Positions 11,087-19,599 of a stretch of 47,579 nucleotides of DNA are shown in pieces. The translations under genes were made by a program, and so were the position numbers. Position 1 is the stretch's first letter. Each line of letters opens with the position of its first letter. Source of the DNA: Acidobacteriaceae bacterium (GTDB lineage: Bacteria > Acidobacteriota > Terriglobia > Terriglobales > Acidobacteriaceae). The notes beneath the pieces were generated by a model. That model had not been told where the DNA came from. It searched no databases and worked only from the letters and a program-made list of their open reading frames with translations. The stretch is from positions 1 through 47,579 of the forward strand of contig JANXZM010000041.1 of NCBI GenBank assembly GCA_025355505.1, written 5' to 3'.

Positions 11087-11133
11087 TTTTTCATCACACC
11101 CAACCCGTGACCGCCATCACTGACATCCAACCC
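11087..11133 (-). repeat. 47-base interspersed repeat, copy A
   Basis: The minus strand matches the plus strand at 19342-19388 at 42 of 47 positions (TTGGATGTC...GGGTGTGATGAAAAA). It contains a CRP-like palindrome, GTGA-N6-TCAC, at 11107-11120. Confidence 0.65.
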
Positions 11134-11276
11134 AACCCGCGCGACAATGTCATCGAACCTGTAGCAGTGGCGACGTGTGCCATCCACTGGGACGGCCCTC
11201 GAACCTGCTCCAGCCCCATACGGGGATAGGTACTCTTTGATAATCAAACTTCGTCCGATGAGAGGTGCCAGTTCTC

Positions 11277-11308: not shown

Positions 11309-11617
11309 CGAAAACACAGCTAACTCCTTATTCCGGAATACTTCCTATGTAAGTCCTTTAGATTCAAAGACCCAGCGGATTTTTCTCTCTAAACCCATGA
11401 TTCCACAATACAGGGGGGGAGGGGCGCAGTAAACAGCGTTAATATCTCATCAGTTACTACCGCGCCCCGGCGGATGGCCCACGCTTCGGGTTTGGTTCCC
11501 TTTCCAATCACACAACTGTGGGTGGCAGTCTGATCGCACCGTGCTCTGCTGGCTCTTCGACATACCCTTCCCCCTTTCCCCAATATCAAATCATATTTAG
11601 GTGCGTGCGGTTTTTGG

Positions 11618-12034
11618 GGAGCAGGTCAGGGGGTCATGCTGGCGGCTTCTGCGTGATTGGCGCGGTGCACTTGTTCAACGTCAAGCGCCTGCACAGCGTT
11701 GTGCGCCCTGCGGTGCTCTGACAGAGACGCTTCTCGAAAGCGAACTCTTCGAGCATAACAAAAGGCGCGTTTACCGTTTCGAATTGCCGCCGCTGCGCGA
11801 GCGACGGAAAGATATCCCCGTGCTGATGAGCCACTTCGTGCAAAAGTTCTCGCTGGCCATGAACAAACGCATCACCCGGGTTTCACCCGCGGCCATGAAC
11901 CAATTGCAACAGCAGCACTGGCTGGGGAACGTTCGTGAGCTCGAGAATGCGGTGGAACGCGCCACGGTTGTGGGACAGGAGCCGGAGCTGCACGAACAAA
12001 ACTTTATCTTTAAGCCAGCCAGCGACCGCCGCCT
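11618..12034 (+). pseudogene. Broken sigma-54-dependent activator (NtrC-like AAA+ fragment)
   Basis: The readable frame gives LTETLLESELFEHNKRR and jumps directly to YRFELPPLRERRKDIPVLM, then WLGNVRELENAVERATVV. In intact activators ESELFGHEKGAFTGA and the Walker B segment separate these motifs by roughly 70-80 residues, so an internal deletion removed the GAFTGA loop and Walker B. Upstream, FNVKR and CGAL recall the segment after Walker A, but in shifted frames. No Walker A and no C-terminal HTH are present. The fragment ends four bases from the convergent permease stop. It is a relic, not a functional gene. Confidence 0.75.
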
Positions 12035-12037
12035 GCG

Positions 12038-12844
12038 TCAACTCGGTATCCAATGCGGATTCGCGGTAAAGAGACCGTCGATAAAACCGATATGGACGGT
12101 GATGAACAGACCGAAAGCGACGCTGATGAGTCCGGAGGCCACGGTGAGGCCGCGGTTGAAATTTATGAAGCGCTTGCCGGTGTAGGCGAACGGCGCGGCG
12201 ATAATCATGGTAATCAGCATCATTCCGGCAATTGTCCCGACGCCGAAAATAAGGAGGTAAATGATGGCCCATCGTGGATCGCGGATGGTGGCTAGAACCA
12301 GCAGGGCGACGGCAGCAGATCCGGCTAGTCCGTGGACGAGTCCGACGACCAGGGGGCGAAGCAACTGGTAGAGCCCGATCCGCGCTAGGGCTTTCTGCAA
12401 ATTGCCCTCAGGCTTCTGTTCGAAGTGCATGTGCACCTCGGGGTTGTGCCCATGGATATGGGCGTGTGCATCCACACCATGCTTGTGCGGGTGCGCATGG
12501 ACGGCTCCCGCATGGGTGTGAGCGGGAGTGAAGCGGTTGGTGATCCACTGTGTGACACCAGTGAGATTGAGGATGCCAAGAAAAATCAGCATTAGGCCGA
12601 CAGCAAATTCCATAGTGAGACCGACGCGAGGCGGAATCGCCAGATTGAAGAGAATGATGGCCGCGCCGACAAACAAAATCGTTAGCGTGTGTCCAATGCC
12701 CCAGAGAATTCCAATAAGTCCGGCGCGCCGGATGCTTTGCTGGCGGCTGACGATGGTGGTCACGGCGATGACATGGTCAGGGTCGGTCGCATGGCGCATC
12801 CCGAGCAGAAACCCGACGCCGATCACGGTTAGTAAGCTCACCAT
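12038..12844 (-). CDS. NiCoT-type nickel/cobalt permease
   Basis: A 268-residue, multi-span membrane protein. The signature RHATDPDHVIAV in the first helix contains H-x4-D-H (His18, Asp23, His24), the metal-recognition motif of HoxN/NixA-type nickel/cobalt transporters. A histidine-rich loop (residues about 108-140, HTHAGAVHAHPHKH) probably binds metal. It sits 58 bases downstream of the NicO-type transporter gene and on the same strand, so it may be the last gene of that cluster. Direction of transport and metal identity cannot be fixed from sequence; UreH-like members are an alternative label. Confidence 0.82.
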   Translation of the reverse strand: MVSLLTVIGVGFLLGMRHATDPDHVIAVTTIVSRQQSIRRAGLIGILWGIGHTLTILFVGAAIILFNLAIPPRVGLTMEFAVGLMLIFLGILNLTGVTQWITNRFTPAHTHAGAVHAHPHKHGVDAHAHIHGHNPEVHMHFEQKPEGNLQKALARIGLYQLLRPLVVGLVHGLAGSAAVALLVLATIRDPRWAIIYLLIFGVGTIAGMMLITMIIAAPFAYTGKRFINFNRGLTVASGLISVAFGLFITVHIGFIDGLFTANPHWIPS

Positions 12845-12902
12845 ACGAAGTTACCTTGAAATCCCTTCATTCGAATCGAGTCCAGATTCATGCGAGGATC
12901 GT

Positions 12903-14654
12903 TCATAGGCGGATCTGCACAATCCCACCCGTGATCAAAGCCCGAATCGCAATTCCCAACCCTAAAAACGTAATCACCGCAGCGGAGGTTAGGGGCAGCC
13001 AGCGGGTGATCAGCAGTCCTTCGCTGCGGAATTTGGTCATGAATTTGCGAGCGTAAACCATCAGCACCCCTACAGCAATCAACACGCCGGCGAGGCCAAC
13101 GCTGAAAGCGACAATCAAGAACAATCCAAAACCGACCCGGTTGAGCGCGACCGCGCTGAGAAGCACTACGAGCGCGGCGGGACACGGAACAATACCACCA
13201 GTGATGCCCAAGGCGAGGAGCTGCCGGTAAGGGACGCCGCTGCGAATCTCGTCATGACGATGGCCTTTAACGTCGAGTTCGTCGTGGCTATGTTCTTGGC
13301 CGTCGTGAGAATGAACGTGTCCATCGGCGTGCGCGTGGTCGAGGCCGTGGTGATGGTGTCCACCCGGGCCATGGGAGTGGCCCACTTCGTTGCCTACGTA
13401 GCGTTGGAGAAACAAGTAAGAACCGACGGCCGCAATCAATAGTCCGGAGATGGCGCCCAGCCACGGATACAGTTGTTCCGGAACAATGTACTTCGAGGCG
13501 TAGAGCGTTACGAACCCCAACGCGTAGACGCTCGCGGTGTGAGACACGGTCACAATCAGCCCGAGCAGAAAAGCGTGATAGGCCGTTCCCTTCGATCCTA
13601 CTAAGTAGGCGGCGACAATTGTCTTTCCGTGTCCGGGTTCCAACGCGTGCATGGCTCCGAGGCCGGCTGCGATGGCAGCTGCCACAACCAGGAACCAGAT
13701 GCTGAACTGCTTCGTGGTCATCAGCTCGGTGAATCTGTTCTTGGGAGTAGATTGCTGGTTCGCTCGGAGCGGTAGAGTGAGAAAGTCTCCGGGTCTTGCC
13801 GGGCTGGAACTCTCCGCGTCGGATTTTGCCGCACCGGGATTTTGCTCGATAGTCCGTGCAGTATTCTCTGCCGCTGGTGGCGAGGACGGGATCAACGTCT
13901 GATGTGCAATCTGGTTTGCTTGGCTGGACTTCAACGCTTCAGAAGACGCCGCTTTCGACGCCGCTCGGCTCGCTGTGGTCAGTTCGGCGGCGACTGGCTC
14001 CCAGCGCAGACTCACGCTCGCTTCAAGATTGAGAGGCGGACTGTTGAGAAGATCGGTTGGATAATTGGAAAGCTGGGAACTGCGATCTCTGTTAGGGACG
14101 GTTGCGTTCACGATGCTTACACCCGGTCCGGCGTTCGCCACGACTTCTTTCCATCCGGCTCGATTGGGAAAATTGTTGTCTCGATAATACAGAGCGTATT
14201 GGCCGCGCCCCGCCTTCTCCTGGTCCGATCGGAGAATGGGTGCGCGGTACTTAAAAACCATCTTCATGGTGGGAAGGCCGCCGGCACCCGGTGGAAAGAT
14301 CACTTCCGCCGACTCCGTTCGCAGCGTCAGTGGCTGGCCATTGAGAGTCAGAACCAGGCCTGCCTTCAACCTCTCGGCTTGTTTCGCAAGGTAGCTGCGA
14401 GTGCCAGCGTTTTCGGGGTTAGCAGCCAAAGCACTTTGCTGGATCTCCTGGAAGGCGGGAATCTCGGCCATATCGATCAAGTAATGAATTTCGACAAAGT
14501 CTCGCTCGATGCGAAGGCCAGAATAGTGACTGGTGCTAAAGTTGCCCATCGGATGGGCAAAACTCGTTGATGAAATCAGGAGCAGACACAAGGCCAAGAG
14601 GAATGGCCAGCGCAAACGGGAATGATCGAGGGTCGAGATTATGCGGTCCTTCAT
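12903..14654 (-). CDS. NicO/RcnA-type metal transporter with large exported N-terminal domain
   Basis: A 583-residue protein. Residues 1-33 are a signal-like segment ending SFAHP. Residues about 34-225 form an exported domain with beta-rich character (FVEIHYLIDMAEIP, YYRDNNFPNRAGWKE). Residues about 226-305 are a low-complexity Ala/Ser/Pro linker. Residues 316-583 are a six-span membrane domain with HALEPGHGKT (336-345), a histidine-rich loop (425-468) and GGIVPCPAAL (486-495). These are the marks of the NicO family, which includes the nickel/cobalt efflux protein RcnA. Its start overlaps the end of the upstream TPR gene by four bases, so translation is coupled. RcnA itself lacks the exported domain. 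An export or metal-delivery role across the envelope is inferred. Confidence 0.8.
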   Translation of the reverse strand: MKDRIISTLDHSRLRWPFLLALCLLLISSTSFAHPMGNFSTSHYSGLRIERDFVEIHYLIDMAEIPAFQEIQQSALAANPENAGTRSYLAKQAERLKAGLVLTLNGQPLTLRTESAEVIFPPGAGGLPTMKMVFKYRAPILRSDQEKAGRGQYALYYRDNNFPNRAGWKEVVANAGPGVSIVNATVPNRDRSSQLSNYPTDLLNSPPLNLEASVSLRWEPVAAELTTASRAASKAASSEALKSSQANQIAHQTLIPSSPPAAENTARTIEQNPGAAKSDAESSSPARPGDFLTLPLRANQQSTPKNRFTELMTTKQFSIWFLVVAAAIAAGLGAMHALEPGHGKTIVAAYLVGSKGTAYHAFLLGLIVTVSHTASVYALGFVTLYASKYIVPEQLYPWLGAISGLLIAAVGSYLFLQRYVGNEVGHSHGPGGHHHHGLDHAHADGHVHSHDGQEHSHDELDVKGHRHDEIRSGVPYRQLLALGITGGIVPCPAALVVLLSAVALNRVGFGLFLIVAFSVGLAGVLIAVGVLMVYARKFMTKFRSEGLLITRWLPLTSAAVITFLGLGIAIRALITGGIVQIRL

Positions 14655-15970
14655 CGGCTGGCGCCTTCCAATTTGGCGGCCCCATTGGTCTGCATTTCTT
14701 CAAGCGCGCGCCGCGCCGCGTCGGCATAGAAAATGTGGAAGTGCGGATTGATCGCGAGCGCTCGCCGCAGATAATCACGAGCTCCGTCCGTGTCGCCCAT
14801 GTCCCGATGGATCATTCCAGCATGAAAATCAAACATGGCGTCTTTAGTTCCCATACTTAAGGCTTTGTCCATCGTCGCGGCAGCTTCTTTGAGTTTTCCG
14901 TTCTTGTAGAGCGACCAGGCGAGGACATCCTGGGTGTAGACGTCGCGGCGCAGTTCCAGTTCTCTTTGCGCTAACGCCATTGATTCGGGCAGCTTGACGT
15001 CGCGGTCAGCATAGAAAACGGCCAGTTCGCGGTTGTACGCGCGCTGGTTGAGGCTGCTCAGGTATCCGATGTATTCCACCAGGTCGTGTTGCTTTTTAGC
15101 TTCTTCTTTTTCTCCGATCTTGGTGTAGATGTCGCCCAAGGCGGCGATGTAATCAGGGAAAGGGATTTCTTCAATCGCCTTTTTATAAAAATCAATTGCC
15201 TCTGGATATTTCTGCTGCGCCACGCGCACTTTGGCCAAGCCGCTGAGACCACGATAATAACCGGGGAGGGCGGTCAGAGCCTCTTGATAGGCCGCCTCCG
15301 CGCCAGAGATATCCCCGGCTTGAAAGAGATATTCTCCCAATTGAAAGTAGGTCCAGCCTACGTTCTCAGCCGGCAGGTGCAGTGCGGTAGCCGCATTCGT
15401 CGCTTTCTTCGCCAGCTCAATCGCACCCGCATTGTCACCATGAATAAATTTAAGGTACGACACCCTGCTGTCGTGCATGAAGACGAGGCCCCGCGAAGGT
15501 TCCTGCGACGTGAGATGAAGGAGGAGTTTTTCGTAATCCTGCGCCGCCTGGTCGTAGTCGCCCATATCGGCGTGGGCGTCTCCCAGCAAACCAAAGGGCG
15601 ATAAATCTCCAGACCCCAGAGCCAGCGCGCGTTGAGCGTAGTCCGCGGCCTCCGCGAACCGATGTTCGGCCATATAAGTAGCAGCCATGTGGGTCAAGGG
15701 CGCGGCCGCCGACATGTCCATTGAGGAGGTGAGCGCCAGCGATTTGGTCAGGGCCTTCTCCGCCAGGTCGTAGTAGGCGAAGTCGGAGGTTTCACGTCCT
15801 TTTTGAACGTAGGCGGCGCCCAGCTTGTCGTAATCGGTGGCGTTGTTCGATGCGGCCGCCCGCACCTGGTACAAGGCGATGCTGCGGTCTGTAGCGCCCT
15901 GTTGGGCCATCGCGACAGAGGAGAACGAAAGACCAAGAAACAAGACTATCCGGTTCTGAATTCTCGCCAT
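14651..15970 (-). CDS. Exported TPR protein, first of a paralogous pair
   Basis: A 439-residue protein with a signal peptide (MARIQNRIVLFLGLSFSSVAMA) followed by about ten tetratricopeptide helix pairs, such as LGAAYVQKGRETSDFAYYDLAEKAL and GLSGLAKVRVAQQKYPEAI. It shares two unusual stretches with the upstream TPR protein: RETSD-x3-Y near the N-terminus and RRDVYTQDVLAWSLYKNG near the C-terminus, so they are paralogues. AGGAG precedes the ATG. The stop overlaps the NicO gene start (ATGA). A scaffold role for the envelope metal system is plausible but inferred. Confidence 0.82.
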   Translation of the reverse strand: MARIQNRIVLFLGLSFSSVAMAQQGATDRSIALYQVRAAASNNATDYDKLGAAYVQKGRETSDFAYYDLAEKALTKSLALTSSMDMSAAAPLTHMAATYMAEHRFAEAADYAQRALALGSGDLSPFGLLGDAHADMGDYDQAAQDYEKLLLHLTSQEPSRGLVFMHDSRVSYLKFIHGDNAGAIELAKKATNAATALHLPAENVGWTYFQLGEYLFQAGDISGAEAAYQEALTALPGYYRGLSGLAKVRVAQQKYPEAIDFYKKAIEEIPFPDYIAALGDIYTKIGEKEEAKKQHDLVEYIGYLSSLNQRAYNRELAVFYADRDVKLPESMALAQRELELRRDVYTQDVLAWSLYKNGKLKEAAATMDKALSMGTKDAMFDFHAGMIHRDMGDTDGARDYLRRALAINPHFHIFYADAARRALEEMQTNGAAKLEGASR

Positions 15971-16084
15971 TTCGGAGCTCCTTTCTTTGGAAAGCCTAAT
16001 TGTTGAACTGCGTTTAATCGGAATCGGATCGGTTGCCGCGACTTCTGCCCTGCAATATGTACGGTGACGAGCGCAACTTTGGAT

Positions 16085-17353
16085 TTAGCGATTGACCGCG
16101 GCAGCCTGTCCGAGACTGGCAAGACGCAGGCGTGCCTGCTCCGAACCATTGGCGTGGAGCGCAGCGGAGTCTTTCAGATAGCGCTCGGCGGCGGTTTGGT
16201 CGCCAAGCTTCAACGCGATTTCGCCGGCGTGATCCAGGAGGCTGGCGTCGCGGATACCGATTGCCAGGGCGGTTTCGATTTGCTTGCGAGCTTCCGTGTC
16301 CTGACCGTTGACGTGCAGCGCCCAGGCATAAGCGTCAAGCGTGTACACGTCGTGACGCCATGCGTATTCCTGTTGCGCGACTTTCAGTGCTTGGGCTGGC
16401 TGTTGCGCGTGATCGGCATAGTAGAAGACCAGGTCGTGATTGGAGTTATCCTTACGGATTGATTCTGCCAACGACTGGGCCTCAAACTCGGCGAAAGTCT
16501 TTTTCGCCTCGTCTTCGCGACCTGCGAGTTTTAGCGCTTCGGCGAGATCGTAAAGATTCTCGGCGTGCGGGGTGGCCTGATAGCGCTGTTGCATCAACAC
16601 CACGGCGTCTTCATAGCGCTTCTGCGCGATGCGAACCTTGGCCAGATTTCCCTGGGCGTAGTAATAGCCGGGAAAAATGATCAGCGCCTGCTTCAGAATG
16701 TTGTCTGCCTCGTCCGTTTTTCCCGCTACGAAACGCAGATGGCCCATCTGGCTGAGAATCCAGGCGCGGTCTTCGGTTTCGGTGGGCGGAGTGGCTTTAT
16801 AAGCGATGTCCAGTAATTCGTATGCGCCGTCTACGTCGCCGAACAGTTCGCGCAAGTAAGCGGCGCGCGTCAAGCCGGGCAGGTTACCCGGGCGCAGATT
16901 TAGCATCCATTGGACGGCGTTTTCTGCTTCTTCGTATTTGCCCAGTTCGGCATTCGCGTCGCTCATGAAGCCATAGACCAGAACGTCGTCTGGATTTTTT
17001 TTGTTCAAAGCTTTCGCGGCTTCGAGGGCAGAGGGAAATTCGTGGCGGCCGAGCAACAGCCAGACGTGGATTTTCCCGCTCTCCAAGTTGCCAGGAGCAA
17101 GTTCGAGGGATTTTTTCAATGCATCTTCGGCCTGACTGTAGCAACTGGAGTCGGAGGTTTCCCGAGCGCGGCGCGAGAGGGCGATGGCGAGCTGGTTGTA
17201 GCCCGCAAACTGGCCGGGCTTATTCTCGATTTCCTTTCTGGCGGCGGCCATGCTTTGCTCAGCGGGGGAGAGTTGCAAGGCGGGCATGGGAGAGTTTTGC
17301 GCCGGCGCGTAGAGGGCAAAACTGAAGGTCAGAAGAGCAACTTTCGCTTTCAT
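16085..17353 (-). CDS. Exported TPR protein, second of a paralogous pair
   Basis: A 422-residue protein. The ATG at 17353 is chosen because GAGGA lies 6 bases ahead and the signal peptide MKAKVALLTFSFALYAPAQ starts there; the longer frame upstream has no such features. TPR-like repeats fill the rest. ARETSDSSCYSQAEDALKK and RHDVYTLDAYAWALHVNG correspond to stretches of the downstream TPR protein, so the two arose by duplication. It lies downstream of the DUF4331 gene, separated by a terminator-like hairpin, and 114 bases upstream of its paralogue. Confidence 0.82.
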   Translation of the reverse strand: MKAKVALLTFSFALYAPAQNSPMPALQLSPAEQSMAAARKEIENKPGQFAGYNQLAIALSRRARETSDSSCYSQAEDALKKSLELAPGNLESGKIHVWLLLGRHEFPSALEAAKALNKKNPDDVLVYGFMSDANAELGKYEEAENAVQWMLNLRPGNLPGLTRAAYLRELFGDVDGAYELLDIAYKATPPTETEDRAWILSQMGHLRFVAGKTDEADNILKQALIIFPGYYYAQGNLAKVRIAQKRYEDAVVLMQQRYQATPHAENLYDLAEALKLAGREDEAKKTFAEFEAQSLAESIRKDNSNHDLVFYYADHAQQPAQALKVAQQEYAWRHDVYTLDAYAWALHVNGQDTEARKQIETALAIGIRDASLLDHAGEIALKLGDQTAAERYLKDSAALHANGSEQARLRLASLGQAAAVNR

Positions 17354-17423
17354 GATGTTCCTCATTTCGATTACAACCAGATCATCGCATTCCCCGTAGG
17401 CACGGGTTCCCTGCCTGCGGCGC

Positions 17424-17439
17424 ACGCGGCAAGCCGCGT
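17424..17439. repeat. Palindrome ACGCGGC-AA-GCCGCGT
   Basis: A perfect 7-bp inverted repeat with a two-base loop. The same arms recur at 26790-26811 (GAGACGCGGC-TT-GCCGCGTCTC). It is a member of a small intergenic palindrome family. Confidence 0.6.
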
Positions 17440-17448
17440 CCTTAAGGG

Positions 17449-17486
17449 AAAAACGCGGCCGCCGTTACGGTTTTGGTAACGGCGGC
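17449..17486 (-). terminator. Rho-independent terminator or attenuator after the DUF4331 gene
   Basis: On the minus strand an 11-bp stem (GCCGCCGTTAC and GTAACGGCGGC, 7-base loop) is followed within a few bases by TTTTT. It begins 12 bases after the DUF4331 stop. The TPR genes lie beyond it, so they would be expressed by read-through or by their own promoter, at a lower level than DUF4331. Confidence 0.7.
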
Positions 17487-17497
17487 GCGCAAGTTAG

Positions 17498-18988
17498 CTA
17501 CTGAACGGGGCAAATGCCGTTGGGTTGTCCGGAGCAGCCTGCTTGTCCGGGGCCTATGTGAACTGAGTTGCGCCCGTTGTTGGCGGGCATCACATAGGGA
17601 AAGGTAGCGCCATAGCCTTCCGGATTGAACTGGACGCCGTCGCCAATGCGCGTCCCGTACTTCGTTCCATCCACAAGGATTCCCGCCACTGCCCGCGAAG
17701 CGATATCTACGACATCGTCGATGGGGCGGCGTCCGTTAGGGAAGCCGGCGTTGTCACCGACGAGGAAGCCGAGACGTTTCTGGCTCCCAACGGGGGTCGG
17801 AGGAATGCCGGTGTTGAGCCGAAGCAGGTCGGCAACTGGCCCGGCGTCGTTGGGTCCGCAACCGGGACAGATCGGCGCCTCATATTGAACCAGGAGCAGC
17901 AAGTCGGTGCGGGGCGGCGGAGCCACTGGAATCCCAAGCGATCCAAAAACCGCGGCCAGCACAGGATTAAGAACGAAGCTCGCGAACTGCGAGTCGTTTT
18001 TGGGGTCGTCCCTACTGAAGCGGTCTTTTGATCCGGTTCCAATGATCAGTTCGTTGATCAGGGGATTGCCTTCGCGTTGTACCTGCTGGAATGCGCCAGA
18101 ATTCAAATCTTTGAATGGGGACTGGCGCACGGTGAGTCTGGGCCGCGAGGTCGCGCCATAGGTTCCGATAACGGCTTGCTTCTCGCCGGCAGGATGGATT
18201 TTGCCGTCCACCGTCAGCATGGAGGTCGGGACTTCCAGCACAATGGAGTTGACGTTGAACCCGGCGACCGCGTCGGGAGAGTAGTTGTGAGTGTCGTCGG
18301 CATCCTCGGCGGCAGGAAGCACGCCACCGACTCCCATACGGAAATTGAGCGAATCAAAGGCCGCGCCCAGGTCGATGAAGAAAGGATCATCGGCCGTACC
18401 CGCCCACACGCTCAAGTTGTTGTTCAGGGTATAGATTCCCTGGTTGAATAACGCCTGGTAATTCGGCATGGTCCGCGGGCCGACATTCGAAGGCACCGCG
18501 TAGAGTGTCTGATCACAGCTCAGGCAGGTCGAGACTCCATTTTTCACCATGGTCACGGTGTAGGTCTGGCGGAGGCTTAGTCCCTTGGAACCTGGACCAC
18601 TCAGCGAAGTAATGGGTGGAATGCCCGCGATGCCACCGACAAAGCCGGTAAACAAGCCGGGCAGCCGGATCTCGGTCTTGAAGCGGAACTGAAAGGTGAC
18701 ATCCTCTACTCCATCCTGATTGTTGTCGACCTTCATTTCGTAAAGCACGTTGGGATCGAAGGGAAAGTAGTTGGGACCGTTGGCCGGTTCGAGGAACGGG
18801 TCCACATTGAGGATCATGGTGACCCGGTCGGGATGGTTGTAACTGACAAAGGCGTACCAGTCAGTAATGTCCGCAGTACGGTCGAGCGCGGTAACGGGGG
18901 CCTCGCGATGACTGGATGCCAACATACTGGCCGGAGCCAGAATGAAAAGCGCCATGGCGAGGGTCACACAAGACTTAAAATTCTTCAT
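17498..18988 (-). CDS. Exported DUF4331 family protein
   Basis: A 496-residue protein with a signal peptide (MKNFKSCVTLAMALFILAP, cleavage near MLA-SS). The mature N-terminus SSHREAPVTALDRTADITDWYAFVS carries the hallmark of DUF4331: HREAP followed by an aspartate-rich D-x-x-D-W-Y-A-F. The family is predicted to be extracytoplasmic and has no established function. The ATG is preceded by AGAGGT. It heads a minus-strand cluster with two TPR proteins and two nickel/cobalt-type transporters, suggesting envelope metal or ligand handling. An intrinsic terminator follows at once. Four cysteines near the middle occur as TCLSC, and PICPGCGP lies further on; these may form disulfides or bind metal. Confidence 0.85.
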   Translation of the reverse strand: MKNFKSCVTLAMALFILAPASMLASSHREAPVTALDRTADITDWYAFVSYNHPDRVTMILNVDPFLEPANGPNYFPFDPNVLYEMKVDNNQDGVEDVTFQFRFKTEIRLPGLFTGFVGGIAGIPPITSLSGPGSKGLSLRQTYTVTMVKNGVSTCLSCDQTLYAVPSNVGPRTMPNYQALFNQGIYTLNNNLSVWAGTADDPFFIDLGAAFDSLNFRMGVGGVLPAAEDADDTHNYSPDAVAGFNVNSIVLEVPTSMLTVDGKIHPAGEKQAVIGTYGATSRPRLTVRQSPFKDLNSGAFQQVQREGNPLINELIIGTGSKDRFSRDDPKNDSQFASFVLNPVLAAVFGSLGIPVAPPPRTDLLLLVQYEAPICPGCGPNDAGPVADLLRLNTGIPPTPVGSQKRLGFLVGDNAGFPNGRRPIDDVVDIASRAVAGILVDGTKYGTRIGDGVQFNPEGYGATFPYVMPANNGRNSVHIGPGQAGCSGQPNGICPVQ

Positions 18989-19599
18989 GGGATTGACCTC
19001 TTGGTATTGAATTTGTGGACGATGTCCCCTTGGAACGGAGCTGCCCCAAGCGCGGCGACGCGACTGGTGCAGATAGGCAATGGGCTCCGTCTACAACCCT
19101 AGTACGGATGGGATTAAAGAATGGATTGGTGGAGTTAGTAGGGATCGAAGCCTGTCGTCGCCCGCTCAGGGCGGATTCGTAACCCTTCAGGTCCCTTCTC
19201 ATCGCCCGACAAAAAAAGCACAGACAGCGCCGTCTGCCTGTTCACTTTCGTACTTTCGCACAGGTATCGGTCTTGTCCAAAATCATGGTTTCGGCTTCTG
19301 CGATCTAAGGTTTTTACTCAAGCGGTTATTTCGTACAGGCCGGATTGGATGTCTGTGACGGCGGTCACCGGCTGGGTGTGATGAAAAAGGTCAGCTCAGT
19401 GGGAATCGCAATCCAGCGCATCATGCGGAGGGATGAGCGGTCTTCCGGCTGTGCGCGCGCTTCCATCGGCAGAAAATTCCCGCCCAAGCGGAGCTTGAGC
19501 GGGGCACCCTCCGAATCACGGGGCACTCGGACGCGATCTTTGCGTTTGCGATGTCAGCGGAATGGTTTGATAATGGACTGATCGTCAGGCACCTATCCA
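18989..19599. other. Divergent intergenic region with an interspersed repeat
   Basis: About 610 bases between the divergent DUF4331 and pseudouridine synthase genes. No supported gene was seen. The only recognised element is the 47-base repeat at 19342-19388, with its internal GTGAC-GTCAC palindrome. Promoters for both genes must lie here, but none was recognised with confidence. Confidence 0.55.
19342..19388 (+). repeat. 47-base interspersed repeat, copy B
   Basis: Identical at 42 of 47 positions to the reverse complement of 11087-11133. It contains TGTGACGGCGGTCACC (19354-19369), a CRP-like palindrome of the same form as the site at 10309. Confidence 0.65.

Follow-up and report, generated by a model that had tools for sequence, protein, structure and literature searches.

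Positions 12038-18988 of an Acidobacteriaceae contig (JANXZM010000041.1; the whole 47,579-nt stretch analysed is called the window here) hold five genes on the minus strand, encoding a DUF4331 protein, two tetratricopeptide repeat (TPR) proteins designated TPRa and TPRb, a NicO fusion protein and a second NicO/NiCoT-like permease. All five open reading frames (ORFs) are open, as the first-pass annotation of this DNA had reported. Copies of the same module, of which this cluster is one, occur in Acidobacteriota, Actinomycetota, Cyanobacteriota and Pseudomonadota, and we give a probability of about one half to the proposal that this is a widespread envelope module handling a transition metal outside the cytoplasm, as follows. 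DUF4331 and the N-terminal domain of the permease would be exported, and cleavage by signal peptidase would leave an X-X-His N-terminus, of the amino-terminal copper and nickel (ATCUN) type, on DUF4331 and a histidine as residue 1 of the Ang-1-like beta-sandwich of the permease. The exported TPR proteins, each specific to one partner, would dock DUF4331 and the permease domain, so that metal bound outside the cell by DUF4331 could pass to the N-terminal His of the permease and on to a NicO/NiCoT or HupE/UreJ-2 membrane part, most likely moving inward, with cytoplasmic His-rich loops acting as a buffer. What suggests this mechanism is the N-terminal His of the NicO fusion, together with the fold match of its first domain to the PDB entry 9GCE, and the X-X-His of DUF4331. 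Gene order, conservation, N-terminal motifs and the swapping of permease types can be read from sequence; the cleavage sites, metal binding by the module proteins, TPR docking, the order and direction of the relay and the metal carried are what we infer, copper, nickel and cobalt being the candidates, the first two by analogy. The features are as follows:

17498..18988, minus strand: DUF4331 protein, 496 aa (PF14224, 369.6 bits; model pLDDT 90.1)
17458..17486, minus strand: hairpin of 11 pairs with a T-rich tail, between DUF4331 and TPRa; possible attenuator
16085..17425, minus strand: TPRa, predicted exported TPR protein of the DUF4331-linked branch (TPR models, tree)
14651..15970, minus strand: TPRb, predicted exported TPR protein of the NicO-linked branch (TPR models, 4-nt overlap with NicO, tree)
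12903..14654, minus strand: NicO fusion, 583 aa, with signal peptide, N-terminal-His beta-sandwich domain, RcnA-like NicO membrane domain and His-rich loop
13986..14555, minus strand: predicted extracytoplasmic N-terminal domain of the NicO fusion, mature residues 1-190, starting HPMGNF (best PDB match 9GCE)
12038..12844, minus strand: second NicO/NiCoT-like permease, 268 aa, with the motif RHATDPDH (HX4DH) (PF03824)

Predicted N-terminal histidines on two exported proteins

The DUF4331 protein of the window passes the PF14224 model with 369.6 bits against a gathering score of 27, and its predicted mature form begins SSHREAP at residue 25, with histidine in third place. Across the family the signal peptides vary, whereas the residues that open the mature chain stay alike. 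The pattern [SA]-[SND]-His directly follows the hydrophobic stretch in 83 of 86 non-redundant DUF4331 ORFs of at least 300 aa, making this His residue 3 of the predicted mature protein in each. This count includes three sequences (L057, L063 and L064) that hold A-N-H although the script misregistered them; the three misses are a truncated ORF (L065) and two ORFs without a signal peptide (L022 and L030). The cleavage register that best fits the set lies just before X-X-H (75/83 by a loose small-x-small rule, 50/83 by a strict one), the next best reaching 57 and 0, respectively; in the window protein itself position -1 is A and position -3 is M, which is outside the small/aliphatic set used in the rule. 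His3 is invariant in all 61 rows of alignment A1, in the conditional sense that these rows (61 of 74 candidates), like all 54 listed rows of alignment A3, were selected by the X-X-H motif. A free N-terminal X-X-His is an ATCUN site for Cu(II) or Ni(II), and DUF4331 has that motif, although a motif is not proof of binding.

The two relatives without a signal peptide (L022:1498-2571 and L030:1462-2457) start V/M-S-H-H, so that the His stays N-terminal in proteins that are probably cytoplasmic; removal of the initial Met would expose S-H-H. Further along, DUF4331 carries the loop DNNQDGVED, and this DNNxDGxED type of loop suggests a calcium site as well. The structure model is good (predicted local distance difference test, pLDDT, 90.1; predicted template-modelling score, pTM, 0.92). 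Against the PDB it gave a best Foldseek E of 0.011 at probability 0.09 and VIA-align Z scores of at most 5.5, mostly to antibodies, and we claim no fold. No solved relative of DUF4331 was detected by sequence, and PDB sequence searches with alignments A1, A2, A5 and A6 returned nothing useful.

The NicO fusion has about 280 residues ahead of a membrane part that matches PF03824 (50.7 bits, gathering score 27.7), and the first 190 residues of its mature form match no Pfam family at E 0.1. Its predicted signal peptide ends SSTSFA and is followed at once by HPMGNF. HP[LM]G near the mature start recurs in 13 distinct NicO-fusion genes from three phyla (three more ORFs represent truncated parts of them), and in 12 of these Ala directly precedes the conserved His, which predicts a mature protein starting with His. 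Alignments A2 and A4 were chosen by HP[LM]G and cut at the His, so its invariance in them is again conditional; A2 leaves out L006, a 72-aa piece of the same gene as L099. The model of the whole fusion is poor (pLDDT 64, pTM 0.40, 8 alignment rows) but mostly good over residues 8-160. With this domain both structure-search programs put the same PDB entry first, the copper-bound Ang-1 domain of a HupE/UreJ-2 protein, 9GCE (Foldseek E 1.2e-3, probability 1.00; VIA-align Z 8.9, root-mean-square deviation 5.7 over 142 residues). The next VIA-align matches are the zinc-binding proteins ZrgA (Z 7.9) and PA4063 (Z 7.1), with ligand-gated channel domains near 6. ZrgA and PA4063 are separate proteins and are not known as parts of permeases.

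In the model, helices lie between strands 2 and 3 of the beta-sandwich, as described for Ang-1 (PMC12537917). An Ang-1-like fold of the domain is supported at the level of a structure model. That work describes Ang-1 and Ang-2 as domains with an N-terminal His, carried by HupE/UreJ-2 permeases, and proposes that they catch metal and pass it to the permease. Both bind copper, with dissociation constants of 62-74 nM, and Ang-1 binds nickel at 220 nM; 9GCE binds both metals, the copper being seen at the N-terminal His (PMC12537917). The NicO fusion shares with these proteins a signal peptide, a predicted N-terminal His, a beta-sandwich whose strands 2 and 3 are separated by helices, and a nickel-type permease. 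It differs in that the permeases of the window are NicO (RcnA-like, PF03824) and NiCoT-like rather than PF13795, with no sequence match between the domains, and because its membrane part is not PF13795 we do not class it as Ang-1 or Ang-2. Among the HupE/UreJ-2 proteins of the loci that we retrieved, His directly follows the signal peptide in 25 of 26, read by eye (the script found 21, two of them, L056 and L098, misplaced; L105 was unreadable); alignment A5 holds 14 of the 21 listed rows. An EF-hand-like loop (DxNxDGxITxxE) after the N-terminal His in HupE/UreJ-2 proteins (e.g. L043-L055) and in some NicO N-domains suggests calcium sites there too.

The first-pass annotation had proposed that the exported parts of the system point to metal; the proposal stands, and these histidines, which it did not mention, are the better evidence for it.

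TPR partners and gene neighbourhoods

TPRa and TPRb each match several TPR models above cut-off, share 29% identity and have short hydrophobic N-termini with an A-x-A site, judged by eye, which agrees with their earlier description as an exported paralogous pair. In a FastTree phylogeny of 46 TPR proteins (each above 200 bits to the profile and longer than 340 aa), TPRb clusters with the TPR proteins whose genes immediately precede NicO in L093 and L095 (support 0.999), whilst TPRa clusters with those adjacent to DUF4331. The TPRb stop and the NicO start share four nucleotides (ATGA), in line with the translational coupling suggested previously. Of 32 TPR-permease junctions, 20 would permit a 4-nt overlap, and these come from several phyla. 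His 128 of TPRa (about 17042-17044) is invariant in the 46 aligned TPR partners and His 399 nearly so (39/46); the two are possible further metal ligands.

Co-occurrence was surveyed around 93 DUF4331 genes, 41 of them in loci similar to the window DUF4331, 30 from a phylum survey of 149 genomes (own genome included) and 22 on plasmids (21 loci, from 32 plasmid records with a DUF4331 match). The 30 exclude L122, which has a TPR neighbour but a DUF4331 score of 32 bits against a cut of 40, and two short stretches (G132:C41 and G026:C37). Neighbours were counted within 4 kb, with the stretch at 5-9 kb of the same loci, either strand, as control. Within 4 kb, 71/93 DUF4331 genes (34, 20 and 17 by set) have a TPR gene on the same strand, and at 5-9 kb none has a TPR gene (0/93), counts to be read with the TPR profiles having been built from DUF4331-adjacent genes, the first set being biased to close relatives and many contigs ending early, which shortens the control stretches. 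A permease, either NicO fusion or HupE/UreJ-2, adjoins 37/93: NicO fusions 12 (0, 6 and 6 by set) and HupE/UreJ-2 proteins 25 (12, 5 and 8), never both beside one and the same DUF4331 gene. The neighbour association is real and conserved, far above the 5-9 kb control, and the co-occurrence check proposed for this cluster gave no refutation of it.

Within the phylum, a strong NicO-fusion match is found in 8/149 genomes (four weak matches of at most 35.7 bits, covering the transmembrane part only, are excluded), and all eight are among the 26/149 genomes with DUF4331. With the own genome set aside, 7/7 NicO-fusion genomes have DUF4331 against 25/148 overall (about 2e-6, relatedness ignored). The two genes lie within 4 kb of each other in six of the eight; in G023 they are on different contigs and in G132 NicO is at a contig end. 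HupE/UreJ-2 is present in 40/149 genomes and near DUF4331 in 5, and a NiCoT-like protein is present in 44/149, mostly away from DUF4331.

The five genes had been taken as a single unit, and this does not hold. The window joins two separable units, DUF4331-TPRa and TPRb-NicO-NiCoT, the NiCoT part being optional, because the TPR tree has two branches, G023 carries TPR-NicO and DUF4331-TPR on separate contigs (L093 and L094) and other gene orders exist. The order in G084 (L095) is TPR-NicO-DUF4331-TPR, and a single TPR gene serves in the order DUF4331-TPR-NicO in G063 (L096), G051 (L097) and G009 (L102). In six genomes a single ORF of 772-896 aa covers both NicO and the NiCoT-like part, which are separate ORFs in the window; the 576-aa NicO ORF of G009 has no NiCoT-like part beside it, and DUF4331-TPR-NicO without that part is likewise found in Streptomyces, Embleya, Nonomuraea and Nostoc plasmid loci. 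HupE/UreJ-2 occupies the permease place in Comamonadaceae, Marinobacter, Lichenicola, Variovorax, Paraburkholderia and one of two Pseudoalteromonas loci, the order in one Paraburkholderia locus being TPR-HupE-DUF4331. Miltoncostaea and Adhaeribacter (Bacteroidota) loci have DUF4331-TPR only.

Genes of the DUF4198 family occur near DUF4331 in L017, L059 and L061. DUF4198 is a secreted nickel binder (PMC12537917); the two families share a predicted N-terminal His on exported metal binders, DUF4331 being a candidate one, and differ in belonging to separate Pfam families.

Direction of transport and alternative explanations

The first-pass annotation described two nickel/cobalt-type transporters, and both do pass PF03824, the second at 32.9 bits (cut-off 27.7); the NiCoT name is loose for that protein, since it scores only 22.4 bits against a cut-off of 333.05 on the classical NiCoT model TIGR00802. 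It resembles the NiCoT importers HoxN and NixA in its HX4DH motif, which we take to be the NiCoT signature, and differs from them in that score and in being fused to NicO in six relatives. The membrane part of the NicO fusion resembles RcnA in its score on the RcnA-type model NF007454 (142.7 bits), its central His-rich loop and a HALEPGHGKT stretch that is presumably present in RcnA. It is RcnA-like only, being below the cut-off of 195, and it differs further in its large exported N-terminal domain and in being encoded together with TPR and DUF4331.

The NicO fusion has a His-rich loop of about 69 residues, 15 of them His, and the NiCoT-like protein has one of about 72 residues, 12 of them His. 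These loops had earlier been put forward as a metal site outside the cytoplasm. We rejected that assignment on their inferred cytoplasmic topology and variable His content, the second loop of the relative L093 having 0 His. In the NicO-fusion model the chain passes from the outer N-domain through three long helices, a short one coming after the first, before it reaches the loop, so that the loops are probably cytoplasmic, as is predicted for the His-rich loop of RcnA (PMC11247825).

We favour inward transport, since HupE/UreJ-2 and NiCoT both belong to importer families (PMC12537917, PMC11247825) and TonB-type receptors are sometimes neighbours. A TonB-receptor-type cluster gene is near 7/93 DUF4331 genes (control 0); five members were scanned, and a TonB-receptor barrel is present in three, the other two having a carboxypeptidase-regulatory-like domain alone. 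The RcnA likeness of the NicO part would also fit the opposite arrangement, in which the permease would export metal and the His1 domain and TPR proteins would hand it to DUF4331, a metalloprotein matured outside the cytoplasm. We regard this as unlikely, though it survives best amongst the alternatives: the NicO half scores highest with an RcnA-type exporter model, DUF4331-TPR is the more constant pair with a permease less often near, and in Rhodobacterales the type II secretion genes next to DUF4331 point to an exported end product, whereas NicO's replacement, HupE/UreJ-2, and the NiCoT part belong to importer families and the TonB-receptor-type genes are typical of uptake.

Several observations count against the proposed envelope module. 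Among named proteins RcnA is nearest to the NicO membrane part, and it works as an exporter, which speaks against inward transport. The host assembly (96% complete) shows neither a [NiFe]-hydrogenase nor a urease, so that a need for nickel is not evident, and Rfam gave 0 matches at the gathering threshold in the window, hence no riboswitch. More than half of the DUF4331 genes (56/93) have no such permease within 4 kb, although some contigs end early, and five Rhodobacterales plasmid loci have DUF4331 next to type II secretion genes but lack both a TPR gene and a permease gene. All of the N-termini are predictions, and in the NicO fusion of L144 (Nonomuraea) Leu precedes the His, with an A-Q-A site four residues earlier, cleavage at which would leave extra residues before it. 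As to the fold, a Z of 8.9 barely exceeds the best Z of 7-8 quoted for the tool with models lacking a clear match; by sequence the NicO N-domain does not match 9GCE, HupE N-domains also fail to find it, and the NicO and HupE N-domains match each other weakly by profile (hhalign 77.7%, 71 columns).

Metal resistance or buffering, in which excess metal would induce the module and the module would trap metal in the envelope and pump it out, seems to us distinctly improbable. In its favour are the genes for extracytoplasmic function (ECF) sigma factors near 25/93 DUF4331 genes (control 1) and RskA-type anti-sigma genes near 9/93 (control 0), the 32 plasmid records with DUF4331, single loci with an ArsR/SmtB-type regulator (L128) or resistance-nodulation-division (RND) efflux genes (L133 and L139) within a few kb, and a HupE/UreJ-like gene whose induction by nickel was the strongest of any gene in Sphingobium ba1 (PMC5557971). 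Metal-regulator or efflux genes are not recurrent, however, among the listed neighbour clusters (at least 4 loci each, few of them identified), and the window has no sigma/anti-sigma pair near the cluster. Very improbable is a purely structural role for the histidines in a system that serves surface polymers, secretion or adhesion, its TPR proteins assisting assembly and its permease carrying another solute: DUF4331 having no solved relative by sequence, sortase genes adjoining it at two actinobacterial loci, PEP-CTERM proteins doing so at a few more, and the type II secretion genes in Rhodobacterales would fit, yet two unrelated exported families of one module both have His at predicted mature residue 1 or 3, and the two DUF4331 relatives without a signal peptide still start M/V-S-H-H.

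Returning to the envelope module, we hold only tentatively a bolder version of it, a cross-phylum capture relay unlike any uptake system known to us, with ligands made by cleavage, hand-over by TPR proteins, interchangeable permeases and DUF4331 as the capture protein. Equally tentative is the part of it in which NicO, a NicO-NiCoT double permease and HupE/UreJ-2 would stand in for one another and metal would be taken up. The cluster had been said to match no known pathway. The system is indeed undescribed in the literature searched, where DUF4331 (PF14224, a Pfam family of 'unknown function') is not named and the matches listed hold nothing on the DUF4331-TPR-permease combination; DUF4331, TPR and NicO have 0 occurrences in the main text of PMC12537917. 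The core idea of an N-terminal-His domain on a nickel-type permease is not new, however, having been published in 2025. DUF4331 would be the capture protein of such a relay. Through its link to a conserved TPR partner and to permeases with an N-terminal-His domain, a large exported family of unknown function gains a role open to bench tests. The link also carries the 2025 anglerase idea, framed for HupE/UreJ-2, over to another permease family and to a system of several genes found in four or more phyla, and it suggests that bacterial envelopes may commonly create metal sites through the cleavage of signal peptides.

Host context and other features of the locus

The own genome assembly has a single DUF4331 gene and no match to PF13795 (the HupE/UreJ-2 permease); the nearest named relatives are Acidobacteriota metagenome-assembled genomes. 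Nickel supply to a [NiFe]-hydrogenase or urease was considered and rejected, the sole own-genome matches being NuoD and an amidohydrolase, identified from their ORF sequences. A search of this one genome for nickel superoxide dismutase gave no match, but its control was equally silent, which leaves that negative little weight. A B12-type methionine synthase domain is present in the host, so that a need for cobalt is possible.

By the ORF table the intergenic gaps are 72 nt (DUF4331-TPRa), 114 nt (TPRa-TPRb) and 58 nt (NicO-NiCoT), although the true start of TPRa is probably the ATG at 17365 or 17353, which would make the first gap longer than 72 nt. Given the hairpin and T-rich tail after its gene, DUF4331 may be made in excess, but hairpin-type sites in the region (13, against 9.7 with standard deviation 3.5 in shuffles) are not above chance.

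On the Rhodobacterales plasmids (L130, L134, L135, L139 and L140), four of the five loci have a prepilin peptidase gene too, and DUF4331 may be a type II secretion substrate there. Large carboxypeptidase-regulatory-like proteins, some with a TonB-receptor barrel, are encoded near DUF4331-TPR in L031, L032, L036, L039, L069, L094 and L111.

A 58-nt inverted repeat (11087-11144 and 19331-19388, 83% complementary) brackets the five-gene cluster. A mobile element bounded by it was considered and set aside: the repeat is dispersed, with 31 matches in the genome, so that the copies are probably not element ends. On the plus strand, an ORF at 11601-12185 overlaps the end of the NiCoT-like gene on the opposite strand; its sole match is AAA_lid_14 (80.7 bits), a domain found in sigma-54-type regulators, and it looks like the remnant of a gene.

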